A stretch of 64,000 nt of DNA from Chaenocephalus aceratus. Lineage: Eukaryota; Chordata; Actinopteri; Perciformes; Channichthyidae. Below, one piece after another: positions 5,185 to 23,318 of this stretch. A model generated the notes under the pieces. It was not told the origin of the DNA, did no database searches, and was given only the letters and a program-made list of their open reading frames with translations. How positions within the stretch are numbered: the stretch's first letter is position 1; each line of letters starts with the position of its first letter. The stretch is from contig JAMFTG010000055.1 of NCBI GenBank assembly GCA_023974075.1, positions 310,001-374,000 on the forward strand, given 5' to 3'. The translations under genes were made by a program, and so were the position numbers.

Positions 5185-5287
5185 CTCTCCATGATGCTTC
5201 TCCACACTGACGGGAAGCCCCTCAAAACTCCTCTCAGAGCTCTCAGTGCTTTGGTTTTCCTTCTTCTCCTAACACACCACTGTAGAG
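5185..5287 (+). CDS. Exon 1: signal peptide
   Basis: The acceptor TCTCCAG lies at 5178-5184 and the first ATG at 5191, with a second ATG next to it at 5194. An upstream in-frame ATG at 5134 would lie in the intron if this acceptor is used, so 5191 is preferred. The peptide has a basic/polar start, then a hydrophobic core (ALVFLLLL) and ends THHCRG, as in fish butyrophilin-like leaders. The donor is GAG|GTAATT and the exon ends in phase 1. Confidence 0.75.
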
Positions 5288-23200: not shown

Positions 23201-23318
23201 TCCCACTGAGCTGAAGTGGAAGGACCTGAAGTCCTGGAGCTCTGGAGACAAACTGCAGGTCGTCCTCTTCGACCAAAAACAAGAGATCCAGTATGACCTC
23301 TGTGTGACAATACCTTAA
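5185..23318 (+). CDS. Butyrophilin-like Ig receptor with coiled coil and C-terminal lamin tail domain (gene-level entry)
   Basis: Nineteen exons are proposed: 5185-5287, 5867-6200, 14951-15238, 15332-15457, 15826-15953, 16114-16215, 16392-16496, 16760-16798, 17189-17302, 17429-17518, 17828-17935, 18577-18663, 18827-18919, 19366-19458 (doubtful), 19620-19697, 22077-22238, 22544-22690, 22895-23002 and 23169-23318. The product would be about 815 residues: signal peptide 1-33, V-set to ~143, C-type Ig to ~239, transmembrane helix ~255-275, coiled coil ~325-640, linker, lamin tail ~710-815. The Ig exons have phase 1 borders and the exons after the membrane have phase 0 borders, so the chain reads through without a stop, apart from a phase conflict at 6181-6200. 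No promoter or poly(A) signal was seen between the receptor and lamin-tail exons. The family role is inferred to be cell-surface immune signalling; the job of the lamin tail is unknown. Confidence 0.8.
5867..6200 (+). CDS. Exon 2: Ig V-set domain (butyrophilin-like), with an end-of-exon frame problem
   Basis: The acceptor is TTCCCAG and the exon opens GQSQLIGS. The V-set signature is complete: the first Cys in ILPCYL, Trp in LEWTRPD, then DPRFVHV, GRTSMF, GNISMKLS, and LSDQGKYRCF with the second Cys. This is the family's usual fold for the membrane-distal domain. In the main frame the last residues (LDFCFTSLW) do not fit the family and the exon would end in phase 2. One base out of step, 6178-6200 reads TFVSLVCG, which resembles the expected G strand, and gives the phase 1 needed to join exon 3. 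A one-base indel near 6175 is the simplest reading. Confidence 0.85.
6201..6977. other. Intron 2, left part
   Basis: Starts with a consensus donor GTAAGT. AT-rich, with no recognisable exon or repeat before the LTR-like copy at 6978. Confidence 0.5.
6978..7386 (-). repeat. LTR-like repeat, copy 1 (409 bp)
   Basis: Begins TGTGAAGG and ends TCTCTAACA on the plus strand, so it has TG...CA ends either way. Read on the minus strand it has a TATA-like stretch (near 7185), an AATAAA (near 7052) and a 3' part of about 70 bases, the order expected for an LTR. Purine-rich sequence (AAAAGAGTGGAT on the minus strand) abuts its minus-strand 5' end, like a polypurine tract. It matches copy 2 at 14288-14696 over the whole length with only 7 substitutions that I counted. 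Confidence 0.65.
7387..11549. other. Interior between the two LTR-like copies, unassigned
   Basis: No gag, pol or env motif could be recognised on either strand. Visible details are a CT-rich stretch at 9835-9945, an AT-rich stretch at 11330-11365, and a minus-strand open stretch at 9177-8884 that I do not recognise. If the two LTR-like copies bound one element, this is its decayed internal region. Otherwise it is plain intron. Confidence 0.35.
11550..12150 (-). mobile_element. Non-autonomous DNA transposon fragment, related to 33136-33860 and 51112-51382
   Basis: Blocks of this segment recur in reverse orientation at 33360-33860: the CCCCACGGTTTGATGATTGA block, the GAAGTCCCGACGGAGAA block and a C-rich CCCCAGACCCCC block near one end. 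The related copy at 51112 begins CAGTGGCAGCGCCAGGGT, which is a hAT-type terminus. No transposase reading frame remains. Confidence 0.55.
12380..12850 (-). mobile_element. hAT-like repeat fragment (AAGTACAAGTA type)
   Basis: Contains CTCAAATAAAGTACAAGTA and ACTCAAGTAAAAGTATATAG blocks that are characteristic of an abundant fish DNA-transposon repeat. Related pieces lie at about 47480-47620 and 53578-53640. No intact ends were found. Confidence 0.5.
13069..14238. mobile_element. Non-autonomous hAT-like element with terminal inverted repeats
   Basis: Ends are TAGTGTTAATTT at 13069 and GAAATTAACACTA ending 14238. The interior is rich in TTTTAGTC/GTCGACTAAAA and CGTCAACGA words, which makes long imperfect inverted repeats. 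The 8-bp flanks (CTGCCCAC and CTTACCAG) agree at five positions, so the TSD is decayed. A small array of GAGTTAGACCAC units lies at 13840-13880. No transposase is visible. Confidence 0.65.
14288..14696 (-). repeat. LTR-like repeat, copy 2 (409 bp)
   Basis: Same length, same orientation and same TG...CA ends as copy 1 (6978-7386). If both belong to one element (7.7 kb, minus strand), this is the 5' LTR. The base run just inside (left of 14288) is weakly reminiscent of a tRNA primer site but does not start with TGG. The outer flanks AGAGT (6973-6977) and ACAGT (14697-14701) agree at four of five bases. Neither copy alone has matching flanks. Confidence 0.6.
14951..15238 (+). CDS. Exon 3: Ig C-type domain
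   Basis: Reads VVLQCESAGWYPEPEVLWLD, with the first Cys and the GWYPEPE motif typical of the butyrophilin/B7 membrane-proximal domain. It continues VSSRVTVEK and SFTCRVQHH with the second Cys. Start alternatives are 14945 or 14951 (AG at 14943-14944 or 14949-14950); both give phase 1 entry. The donor is TTCCAG|GTAGAC, exit phase 1. The domain is complete and shows no damage. Confidence 0.9.
15332..15457 (+). CDS. Exon 4: transmembrane segment
   Basis: After a short stalk, the exon encodes a hydrophobic run (VIIGLAVSLAVCILLMLAVS) followed by FFSLWREH, with basic residues on the inner side. This makes a type I single-pass membrane protein with the following exons in the cytoplasm. The acceptor is ATCATTTCAG and the donor TTCA|GTAAGT, phases 1 to 1. 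Confidence 0.9.
15826..15953 (+). CDS. Exon 5: cytoplasmic juxtamembrane segment
   Basis: Acceptor TTTCACACAG; begins KTKRTRSKTK, a basic membrane-proximal cluster, and ends in KKSKP before the donor GTAAGTAG. It changes the phase from 1 to 0, and all later exons are phase 0. This is the joint between the receptor module and the coiled-coil module. Confidence 0.8.
16114..16496 (+). CDS. Exons 6-7: coiled coil (16114-16215, 16392-16496)
   Basis: Exon 6 (34 codons) reads EEQRRKDAEKEVQTLKEQLQ and exon 7 (35 codons) reads EKQRNEKELQSLKGDL, with Leu/Val at heptad spacing. Both end in a ...KE or ...RE codon followed by GTTCA..., a repeated donor style that marks them as duplicates of one ancestral exon. 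Confidence 0.8.
16760..17302 (+). CDS. Exons 8-9: coiled coil (16760-16798, 17189-17302)
   Basis: Exon 8 has only 13 codons (LEKAKKDFASEYP) between a good acceptor (CTTTTCCAG) and GTAAGT. Exon 9 (38 codons) reads FSKKEELQKKKDKAEQEVEN and ends KTKTE-like before GTTTCT. Both are phase 0 at both ends. Confidence 0.7.
17429..17935 (+). CDS. Exons 10-11: coiled coil (17429-17518, 17828-17935)
   Basis: Exon 10 (30 codons) opens VEVKEAEVQQLQEEGQRMET. Exon 11 (36 codons) has a run of Glu then REEAERKVHILEEQLQKK, close to exon 6 and exon 15, so exon duplication is likely. Acceptors are CCTCTCAG and TATTTCAG; donors are GAG|GT and AAG|GT. No stop or frameshift. Confidence 0.8.
18192..18570. repeat. 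(TG)n tracts flanking a GGGGACC / TTAGGGT repeat in intron 11
   Basis: Two (TG)n tracts, at about 18192-18233 and 18510-18570, bracket a segment with TGTGGGGACC words and then four short TTAGGGTAAGGTTAAGG-type units (18355-18430). The second tract runs up to the exon 12 acceptor. The hexamer resembles vertebrate telomere repeat but the block is only about 75 bp. Confidence 0.75.
18577..18919 (+). CDS. Exons 12-13: coiled coil (18577-18663, 18827-18919)
   Basis: Exon 12 (29 codons) reads LEEITDEELKKAKSQLDN and ends KRD before GTAAAC. Exon 13 (31 codons) reads LLADIQTLKDEKQKSEVV and ends TRKE before GTTCATC, matching exon 6. Exon 12 is squeezed between a (TG)n tract upstream and a (CA)n tract (18668-18762) that starts within the donor region. 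Confidence 0.75.
18668..18762 (+). repeat. (CA)n microsatellite
   Basis: Uninterrupted CA dinucleotides beginning four bases after the exon 12 splice junction. Confidence 0.95.
19366..19458 (+). pseudogene. Exon 14: doubtful or decaying duplicate of exon 12
   Basis: The end reads DEELMNAQRQLNSKEEEISQ, a clear duplicate of exon 12. The start has lost one base relative to exon 12 (GTGGAGGAACACTG against CTGGAGGAAATCACTG). The normal acceptor position therefore gives the wrong phase, and only a weak AG at 19364-19365 without a pyrimidine tract restores phase 0. It may be skipped; because it is a multiple of three, skipping does no harm to the frame. Confidence 0.5.
19620..19697 (+). CDS. Exon 15: coiled coil
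   Basis: Twenty-six codons with REEAERKLKEEVESK, repeating exon 11. The acceptor is ATATCTCAG. The donor AAG|GTACAC is the first unit of a (CA)n tract of about 200 bp (19698-19895), so the 5' splice site sits in the microsatellite edge. Confidence 0.75.
19698..19895 (+). repeat. (CA)n microsatellite
   Basis: Nearly pure CA, with one CATACAAA interruption at about 19834. It lies right at the exon 15 donor. Confidence 0.95.
19896..20552 (-). repeat. Candidate solo LTR, minus strand
   Basis: On the minus strand it begins TGTGAGGACTAAAATGG, has TATAAA early and an AATTAAA-like poly(A) region near the far end, and finishes CTTCTCCTTCA. TG...CA ends and the overall order suggest an LTR of about 657 bp. 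No matching TSD is visible, since the left side is a CA repeat, and no partner LTR is in the window. Confidence 0.35.
20640..21720 (+). mobile_element. Rex1-like LINE, 5'-truncated copy 1
   Basis: From 20642 the frame reads QGSVLGPLLF, then FYADDTVMY (the reverse transcriptase catalytic box), NVDKTKVMLF and YKYLGIWLD. The frame is kept to 21576, broken only by a TGA at 21101 in CDL-stop-PVLDSGD. The 3' UTR ends in CTTGAAAAAGAGATC, ATCTCAATGGGACC and AATAAATAAAGGTTTGAAATG. Upstream RT motifs and the endonuclease are missing, so this is a typical dead-on-arrival copy sitting in intron 15 of the Ig/lamin-tail gene. Confidence 0.85.
21832..21974 (+). repeat. (CA)n microsatellite
   Basis: Uninterrupted CA dinucleotides in intron 15. 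Confidence 0.95.
22077..22238 (+). CDS. Exon 16: linker between coiled coil and lamin tail
   Basis: Fifty-four codons in phase 0 between TCTTGCAG and GAG|GTGGTG. It reads VLTVPEEKTSREDAEKDLKL, then a Pro/Ser-rich part (VPPSASSPSYG), then a charged tail (HEKKGKEDVEVAKE). If the donor were not used, the frame would run on to a stop at 22304, giving a form without the lamin tail. Confidence 0.75.
22544..22690 (+). CDS. Exon 17: start of the lamin tail domain
   Basis: Acceptor CCCCCTTAG (an alternative AG six bases later keeps the frame). After a Pro-rich lead (SVEPPLPPNAE) the sequence reads GFNIELDRHGKCIRLMNTST, the first strands of the lamin tail Ig fold (lamins: ...DEEGKFVRLRNKS). It ends in TE directly before the donor GTAATG, the position at which lamin exon 7 ends. 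Confidence 0.85.
22895..23002 (+). CDS. Exon 18: lamin tail domain core (108 bp)
   Basis: Reads DKQLGTWKLDLKVN, then YTFPLSFKLKAGKDVT. This parallels lamin DQSMGNWQIK... and FPPKFTLKAGQVVT residue for residue at the conserved positions (Gly-x-Trp, Phe-Pro, Leu-Lys-Ala-Gly). Length is exactly 36 codons, phase 0 to 0, starting at Asp and ending at Val-Thr. From memory this is the size and placement of vertebrate lamin exon 8. Confidence 0.9.
23169..23318 (+). CDS. Exon 19: end of the lamin tail domain and stop
   Basis: Reads MWVKGHGRNHAPTELKWKDL, then SWSSGDKLQVVLFDQ, matching lamin IWAAGAGATHSPP.. LVWK.. W..GNSLRTALI. It ends YDLCVTIP and a TAA at 23316-23318. There is no CaaX box, so no farnesyl anchor is predicted, and no lamin rod is present. 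The lamin Ig fold looks complete. Confidence 0.9.
   Translation: MWVKGHGRNHAPTELKWKDLKSWSSGDKLQVVLFDQKQEIQYDLCVTIP

Follow-up and report, generated by a model that had tools for sequence, protein, structure and literature searches.

Can a cell-surface receptor of the butyrophilin kind end, on its cytoplasmic side, in a lamin tail domain (LTD)? The question is raised by a stretch of 64,000 nucleotides (nt) of the icefish Chaenocephalus aceratus (contig JAMFTG010000055.1, positions 310,001 to 374,000 of the forward strand; hereafter the window), where a sequence-only reading had joined a signal peptide, two immunoglobulin (Ig) domains, a transmembrane (TM) helix, a coiled coil and an LTD into one gene. 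The architecture is real, widespread, and undescribed within the literature searched. We consider it probable, with a fair margin of doubt, that the gene is butyrophilin-like and codes for a predicted single-pass surface receptor, whose cytoplasmic coiled coil and probably lamin-derived LTD likely dock or sense a cytosolic protein, as B30.2 does. By title and abstract start, no paper on the Ig-TM-LTD architecture was found among the matches listed in a search covering few subscription journals, and a butyrophilin paper on jawed vertebrates (PMC12841164) holds the word 'lamin' 0 times. This is consistent with the earlier statement that no vertebrate receptor with an LTD has been described; databases already hold such proteins, some of them named as lamins.

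We propose a model in which the butyrophilin-like V and C domains would contact a partner outside the cell, two chains would associate through the coiled coil, which would also space the LTD from the membrane, and the LTD would bind a cytosolic protein, coupling outside recognition to inside state. Such a coupling is attributed to the B30.2 domain of BTN3A1 (excerpt of PMC12841164). The plasma-membrane position and topology of the receptor, the pairing of its coiled coil and a binding partner of the LTD other than those of nuclear lamins are all presumed in this model. The idea that the LTD serves as an interaction module near the membrane had been offered as a guess, and it fits the sequence data.

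The exon chain and its domains

Exon borders were set by hand on the raw window sequence and then checked by script. The resulting model has 18 plus-strand exons, from the ATG at 5191 to a stop codon ending at 23318 (2355 nt, 784 amino acids [aa], 0 internal stops), with AG/GT at every internal border, and it would be read from one continuous transcript. The sequence-only reading had placed the chain at 5185 to 23318; its end stands, and its start moves to the ATG. As modeled, exons 1 to 4 end in phase 1 and exon 5 restores phase 0, and the coiled-coil, linker and LTD exons are each phase 0-0. The joint openness of same-length random plus-strand stretches drawn from 24.6-58 kb gives a product of ~10^-13, a figure that disregards that the frames were chosen.

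At the level of sequence, the domains follow one another on the plus strand as signal peptide, V-set, C-type Ig, TM, coiled coil and LTD, in the order claimed before. The expected V-set, C-type Ig and PF00932 LTD were all found in a Pfam scan of the 784-aa model, above curated cut-offs (C2-set_3 3.2e-15, LTD 2e-10, V-set 2.6e-08). Against the PDB, the LTD alone matched lamin A/C chains at 8.5e-20, while the two Ig domains matched CD276 at 1e-35 and BTN3A chains from 7e-28, butyrophilins and CD276 being their best PDB relatives by sequence. The lamin-tail fold is predicted by structure modeling, with lamin-B1 as best fold match, and a single TM helix is predicted from the one hydropathy peak above 1.9 in P0001. 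This database entry ('hypothetical protein KUCAC02_009685 [Chaenocephalus aceratus]') has an LTD 100% identical to that of the window. Together with P0003 of Champsocephalus gunnari, it covers every coiled-coil exon but exon 11. The features are as follows.

5191..5287, +, exon 1, signal peptide (MMLLHTDGKPLKTPLRALSALVFLLLLTHHCRG), hydrophobic leader as judged by eye; 32/32 residues identical in P0004 (Pseudochaenichthys georgianus) and P0003, absent from P0001
5867..6200, +, exon 2, V-set Ig; ends at 6200 (strong donor that breaks the frame into exon 3) or at 6193 (weak in-frame donor); Pfam V-set 2.6e-08
14945..15238, +, exon 3, butyrophilin-type C Ig (C2-set_3); Pfam 3.2e-15; matches BTN3A and CD276 chains
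15332..15457, +, exon 4, stalk and predicted TM helix; hydropathy maximum 3.05 at P0001 251-269; helix 247-281 in the structure model
15826..15953, +, exon 5, basic juxtamembrane segment; entered in phase 1, left in phase 0
16114..16215, +, exon 6, coiled coil; P0001 34/34 residues; helix 326-400 in the P0001 structure model
16392..16496, +, exon 7, coiled coil; P0001 35/35 residues
16760..16798, +, exon 8, coiled coil; P0001 13/13 residues
17189..17302, +, exon 9, coiled coil; P0003 37/38 residues
17429..17518, +, exon 10, coiled coil; P0001 and P0003 30/30 residues
17828..17935, +, exon 11, coiled coil, the weakest-supported exon; open and bordered; best of seven compared proteins 21/36 residues (P0011)
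18577..18663, +, exon 12, coiled coil; P0003 25/29 residues
18827..18919, +, exon 13, coiled coil; P0003 29/31 residues
19372..19458, +, possible coiled-coil exon (E14), ambiguous 5' border, outside the 784-aa model; P0003 27/29 residues
19620..19697, +, coiled-coil exon (E15); P0003 25/26 residues
22077..22238, +, linker exon (E16); P0001 54/54 residues; P0002-P0004 without good match
22544..22690, +, LTD exon 1; PF00932 2e-10 across the LTD exons
22895..23002, +, LTD exon 2, 108 nt, phase 0-0; borders equal those of LMNA exon 8 (36 residues ending at T496)
23169..23318, +, LTD exon 3 and stop codon; AATAAA downstream at 24110

The chain of coiled-coil exons claimed by the sequence-only reading holds, except that the exon at 19372-19458 is left out of the model although P0003 has it. 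It was at one point read as exon 12 duplicated and shortened by 2 nt; this was dropped, since P0003 has it as a separate exon. The 8.7-kb intron that separates V from C is flanked on the inside, close to either end, by two near-identical copies of a ~0.4-kb repeat (6983-7380 and 14270-14695, by eye).

The model shares with butyrophilins (BTN3A, BTN2A1), CD276 and butyrophilin-like proteins a V-set and a C-type Ig domain, one TM helix and a cytoplasmic coiled coil; it differs in having an LTD in the place of B30.2 and a long coiled coil made of many short exons. At E up to 1, the Pfam scan of the model returned no B30.2/SPRY domain (PF00622, PF13765), and by reading of the rows both families are also absent from the 120 relatives listed of 580. 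Butyrophilin family members without B30.2 exist. With nuclear lamins, in particular lamin A/C, the model has in common a coiled coil followed by an LTD, together with the LTD sequence, predicted fold and exon borders, whereas the Ig-LTD proteins have an added Ig ectodomain and TM helix, no PF00038 rod, no CaaX end and in most cases no motif resembling a nuclear localization signal. The intermediate-filament rod PF00038 was found neither in the Pfam scan of the model nor among the families matched by 32 members of the A1 group (E up to 0.001). Chicken BG molecules are alike in combining Ig and TM with a coiled coil on the cytoplasmic side that is encoded by many short exons, and unlike in having a single V domain and no known LTD. 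LTDs outside the nuclear lamina are known from invertebrate cytoplasmic intermediate filaments with a lamin tail and from LMNTD proteins, which are not known to be membrane receptors.

Spread of the family and origin of its tail

A search with the C-TM region returned 580 proteins, and PF00932 is present in 42 of the 120 listed, accompanied by Ig families in 40 (row count). A search with a Sander LTD returned 158 proteins, and the 120 listed held further Ig-LTD proteins mixed with true lamins. By reading of both listings, at least 22 fish species have proteins that combine Ig with LTD, so that the search of other fish proposed by the sequence-only reading did find the same architecture: Chaenocephalus aceratus, Pseudochaenichthys georgianus, Trematomus bernacchii, Gymnodraco acuticeps, Pagothenia borchgrevinki, Eleginops maclovinus, Epinephelus lanceolatus, E. 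coioides, E. moara, E. fuscoguttatus, Amphiprion ocellaris, Micropterus salmoides, Lates calcarifer, Thunnus thynnus, Sander lucioperca, Dicentrarchus labrax, Mugil cephalus, Acanthopagrus schlegelii, Perca fluviatilis, Oreochromis aureus, Etheostoma spectabile and Centropristis striata. Membership in Percomorphaceae was looked up and confirmed for four of them, and we take the other 18 to belong there as well. A family limited to icefish, as a first LTD protein search had indicated (only 4 icefish proteins of 43 candidates), was ruled out by these wider searches.

In nine species (E. lanceolatus, E. moara, E. fuscoguttatus, L. calcarifer, S. lucioperca, D. labrax, M. cephalus, P. fluviatilis and Etheostoma spectabile) at least one entry bears a lamin-type name ('lamin-A-like', 'lamin-B1-like', 'lamin-B2-like', 'lamin-L(I)'); other entries are called trichohyalin-like, given butyrophilin names or listed as hypothetical. 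RefSeq isoforms rest on RNA-seq. The predicted number of LTDs per protein ranges from one to five according to our own hidden Markov model (HMM), which was trained on these LTDs and one lamin and is not independent of them: four full and a split fifth in Sander P0112, five in Epinephelus coioides P0121, and two each in Lates P0077 and Pagothenia P0057. Moreover, the Sander isoform P0090 has a hybrid LTD, which begins as LTD1 and continues, from the VT/IW border on, as LTD2. Splicing can produce hybrid tails, if the exons share phase at this border as they do in the window.

Human LMNA exon 8 codes for 36 residues with a donor at c.1488+1, and when the last 9 nt of the exon are lost, V494-T496 are deleted (PMC11818007, excerpt). 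Window LTD exon 2 likewise has 36 residues in phase 0-0, aligned to the LMNA exon 8 stretch and ending at the T before I/M-W. From these exactly matching intron positions we infer capture of genomic lamin exons, not retroposition, and the LTD likely came from a lamin gene by such exon capture. A tree of LTDs (55 rows, 105 columns) has one branch, supported at 100/99, that parts 42 Ig-LTDs from lamins; it is unrooted and sampled from 26 hand-picked Ig-LTD proteins and 13 lamins, all A-type or unnamed and none B-type. This split allows one capture event, without proving it. As to the donor, the LTD scores better to lamin A, but its best fold match is lamin-B1, a type that the tree does not include.

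Surface and pace of the lamin tail

Residues were compared between 59 Ig-LTDs and 85 lamins, all distinct in sequence; as isoforms count among them, rows are not independent. Numbering is set by T496 on perch lamin A. The core is common to both groups, with L454 and N456 in 58/58 Ig-LTDs and 85/85 lamins, and the core tryptophans are retained in Ig-LTDs (W467 56/59, W498 54/59, W514 56/59, W520 56/59). By contrast, basic surface residues that never or hardly vary in lamins are lost: K470 is present in 4/59 Ig-LTDs against 85/85 lamins, R471 in 0/59 against 82/85, K486 in 2/59 against 85/85 and R439 in 10/59 against 85/85. The lost residues presumably form one surface. Position 482 holds K or R in 26/59 Ig-LTDs against 85/85 lamins. 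This position is the lipodystrophy hot spot (PMC11818007, excerpt).

The LTD also diverges fast. Among 19 single-LTD proteins of the A1 group, with 136 of 171 pairs comparable, LTD identity was below that of C in 133/136 pairs and below that of V in 133/136. Mean pair identity was 0.69 for V, 0.79 for C, 0.54 for TM plus juxtamembrane segment and 0.46 for the LTD, the least conserved of the four regions, whereas seven percomorph lamin-A tails have a mean mutual identity of 0.83. These pairs share branches, four of the 19 proteins are near-copies from Epinephelus coioides, and some may be paralogues. In the comparison with Trematomus P0011, identity is 92-95% in the Ig domains and 52% in the LTD. 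An LTD faster than the ectodomain is a lead rather than a selection test, as gene conversion could hold the ectodomain together. The LTD likely serves as a fast-changing docking module. In akame, a 'Lamin-L(II)-like' gene (barramundi ENSLCAT00010038704) ranks within the 30 genes of highest polymorphism; 38 of its variants are of moderate, 4 of low and 1 of high impact (excerpt of PMC11346364, Table 2). We suspect, without proof, a mislabelled member of the Ig-LTD family, because barramundi P0077, which belongs to it, is named 'lamin-A-like'. A 'lamin-A-like' transcript of greater amberjack (PMC10444852, excerpt) could be assigned neither to lamin nor to the Ig-LTD family.

A bolder and quite tentative hypothesis, which we would not expect to hold in full, is that the percomorph lamin tail became a cytosolic sensing head. 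It would have replaced B30.2, kept its fold, shed its nuclear contacts, spread to up to five tandem copies and splice-made hybrids, and, under pathogen pressure, outpaced the ectodomain in diversification. If the receptor interpretation is right, the lamin tail, known from nuclear structure and laminopathies, would have a second role in a vertebrate surface receptor, as its cytoplasmic head, and the B30.2 slot of butyrophilins could be refilled by another fold. The family would then offer a set of LTDs naturally released from nuclear tasks, in which fold could be told apart from function. An annotation error that places at least one receptor-like protein under a lamin name in nine of 22 species would also be put right.

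Competing explanations and neighboring features

Several points weigh against the receptor interpretation. The exon joins of the 784-aa model are predicted from frame, borders and gene models. P0001 differs from the model in its first exon (no signal-peptide exon; its first residues derive from an upstream tandem copy, L002 1620-1706) and lacks exons 9, 12 and 13, E14 and E15, and both Champsocephalus gunnari gene models, P0002 and P0003, are without most of V and half of C. The AlphaFold2 (AF2) model has a mean predicted local distance difference test score (pLDDT) of 62, mostly 44-72 in the Ig domains, and a predicted template modeling score (pTM) of 0.32. Among the relatives, 16 of the 42 PF00932 rows are isoforms of one species, Sander lucioperca, and 74 of the 120 listed have no LTD by our HMM. 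Some lamin surface residues are partly retained in Ig-LTDs (R453 48/57, K490 35/59), and the fast divergence of the LTD could also mean relaxed constraint. Moreover, in the window the strong GTAAGT donor at 6201 does not keep the reading frame of exon 3, so that the model uses the weak in-frame donor at 6194, and two other family copies on the contig are broken.

The window copy is a damaged or cryptically spliced family member. Near its end, the V exon is 8 nt shorter than that of a tandem copy ~13 kb upstream, exon 1 to exon 1 (window 6156 onward versus L002 3284 onward), and this loss puts the strong donor out of frame. With the weak donor, the last V strand is lost, whereas it is read through in the upstream copy and in P0004. 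The V-set recognized by the sequence-only reading stands, with this correction at its end. The tandem copy (L002 1191-5562, contig 301191-305562) lies 4.4-8.8 kb upstream of the window start at ~97% DNA identity. Its V exon is without 36 nt at its start, and blast blocks give signal and V exons, then a ~16.2-kb deletion that begins in the intron following V and stops shortly ahead of the final LTD exon, then that exon. The latter differs at 3 sites between the two copies (by reading), too few for such recent duplicates to inform a test of selection. On the minus strand, at contig 255447-256447 (L021), is a decayed LTD relic with in-frame stops. Otherwise, only a distant V/C pair at 96.6-100 kb was found in a scan of 240 kb of flanks (90-310 kb and 374-394 kb) with six query proteins at E up to 1e-4. 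A PF00932 profile search of the whole C. aceratus genome (1.06 Gb assembly) gave no match, even at the window LTD; as this LTD is split over three short exons, we read this as a limit of exon-by-exon search, not as absence.

The gene may therefore be failing in C. aceratus, though its relative P0004 reads through intact. Decay on a wider scale is the alternative that survives best, and we still consider it unlikely: the architecture would be real in relatives, but the icefish copy, perhaps the family, would be losing function, with an LTD diverging by relaxed constraint. The 8 nt gone from the V exon, the ~16 kb missing upstream, the relic with stops (contig 255.4-256.2 kb) and the low conservation of the LTD all agree with it, whereas the LTD core is intact in nearly all of the 59 distinct Ig-LTD sequences, and five LTDs in Sander and Epinephelus coioides are not expected from simple decay.

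It is far less probable that gene models wrongly fused an Ig receptor gene with a neighboring gene for a distinct LTD protein. The 19.7-22.0 kb interval, between the coiled-coil and the linker and LTD exons, does hold a retroelement fragment and CA repeats, and a 463-aa protein of Etheostoma, P0122, is listed with an LTD only. The same join nevertheless recurs in database proteins of the 22 species with differing coil lengths, phases agree from exon 3 onward, and the upstream LTD relic likewise stands beside a weak coiled-coil match (E 0.003).

Least probable by a little is a tail cleaved from the membrane to act in the nucleus with lamina or chromatin, a release that the sequence-only reading had raised: the likely lamin ancestry of the LTD and the KKGK before it in the window copy are in its favor, as is such a motif (K[KR]x[KR] within 60 residues before the first LTD) in 9/31 distinct Ig-LTD linkers, but this compares with 67/78 lamins (stricter KK[KR]K, 1/31 against 0/78), there is a CaaX-like C-terminus in 0/31 Ig-LTD proteins against 54/78 lamins, some of these being short isoforms, and lamin-invariant surface residues are lost. 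A change of K542 to N inhibits BAF binding of lamin A (PMC8909658, excerpt); this column holds K in 79/84 lamins, and in Ig-LTDs K is outside its five commonest residues.

Elsewhere in the window, near-identical reverse-transcriptase fragments lie at 20642-21577 and 25456-26331 (by frames), the first (RVT_1 3.4e-14) inside the intron that parts the coiled coil from the linker exon. Reverse transcriptase is also encoded by long open frames at 36342-39407 (7.6e-38) and 44621-46549 (9.4e-38); the former includes an endonuclease domain as well and follows a 264-aa frame at 35339-36133. Further downstream are exons of an oxidase gene, at 59039-59350 (FAD/NAD-binding start) and 61633-62025 (L-amino-acid-oxidase match, 3.4e-20).

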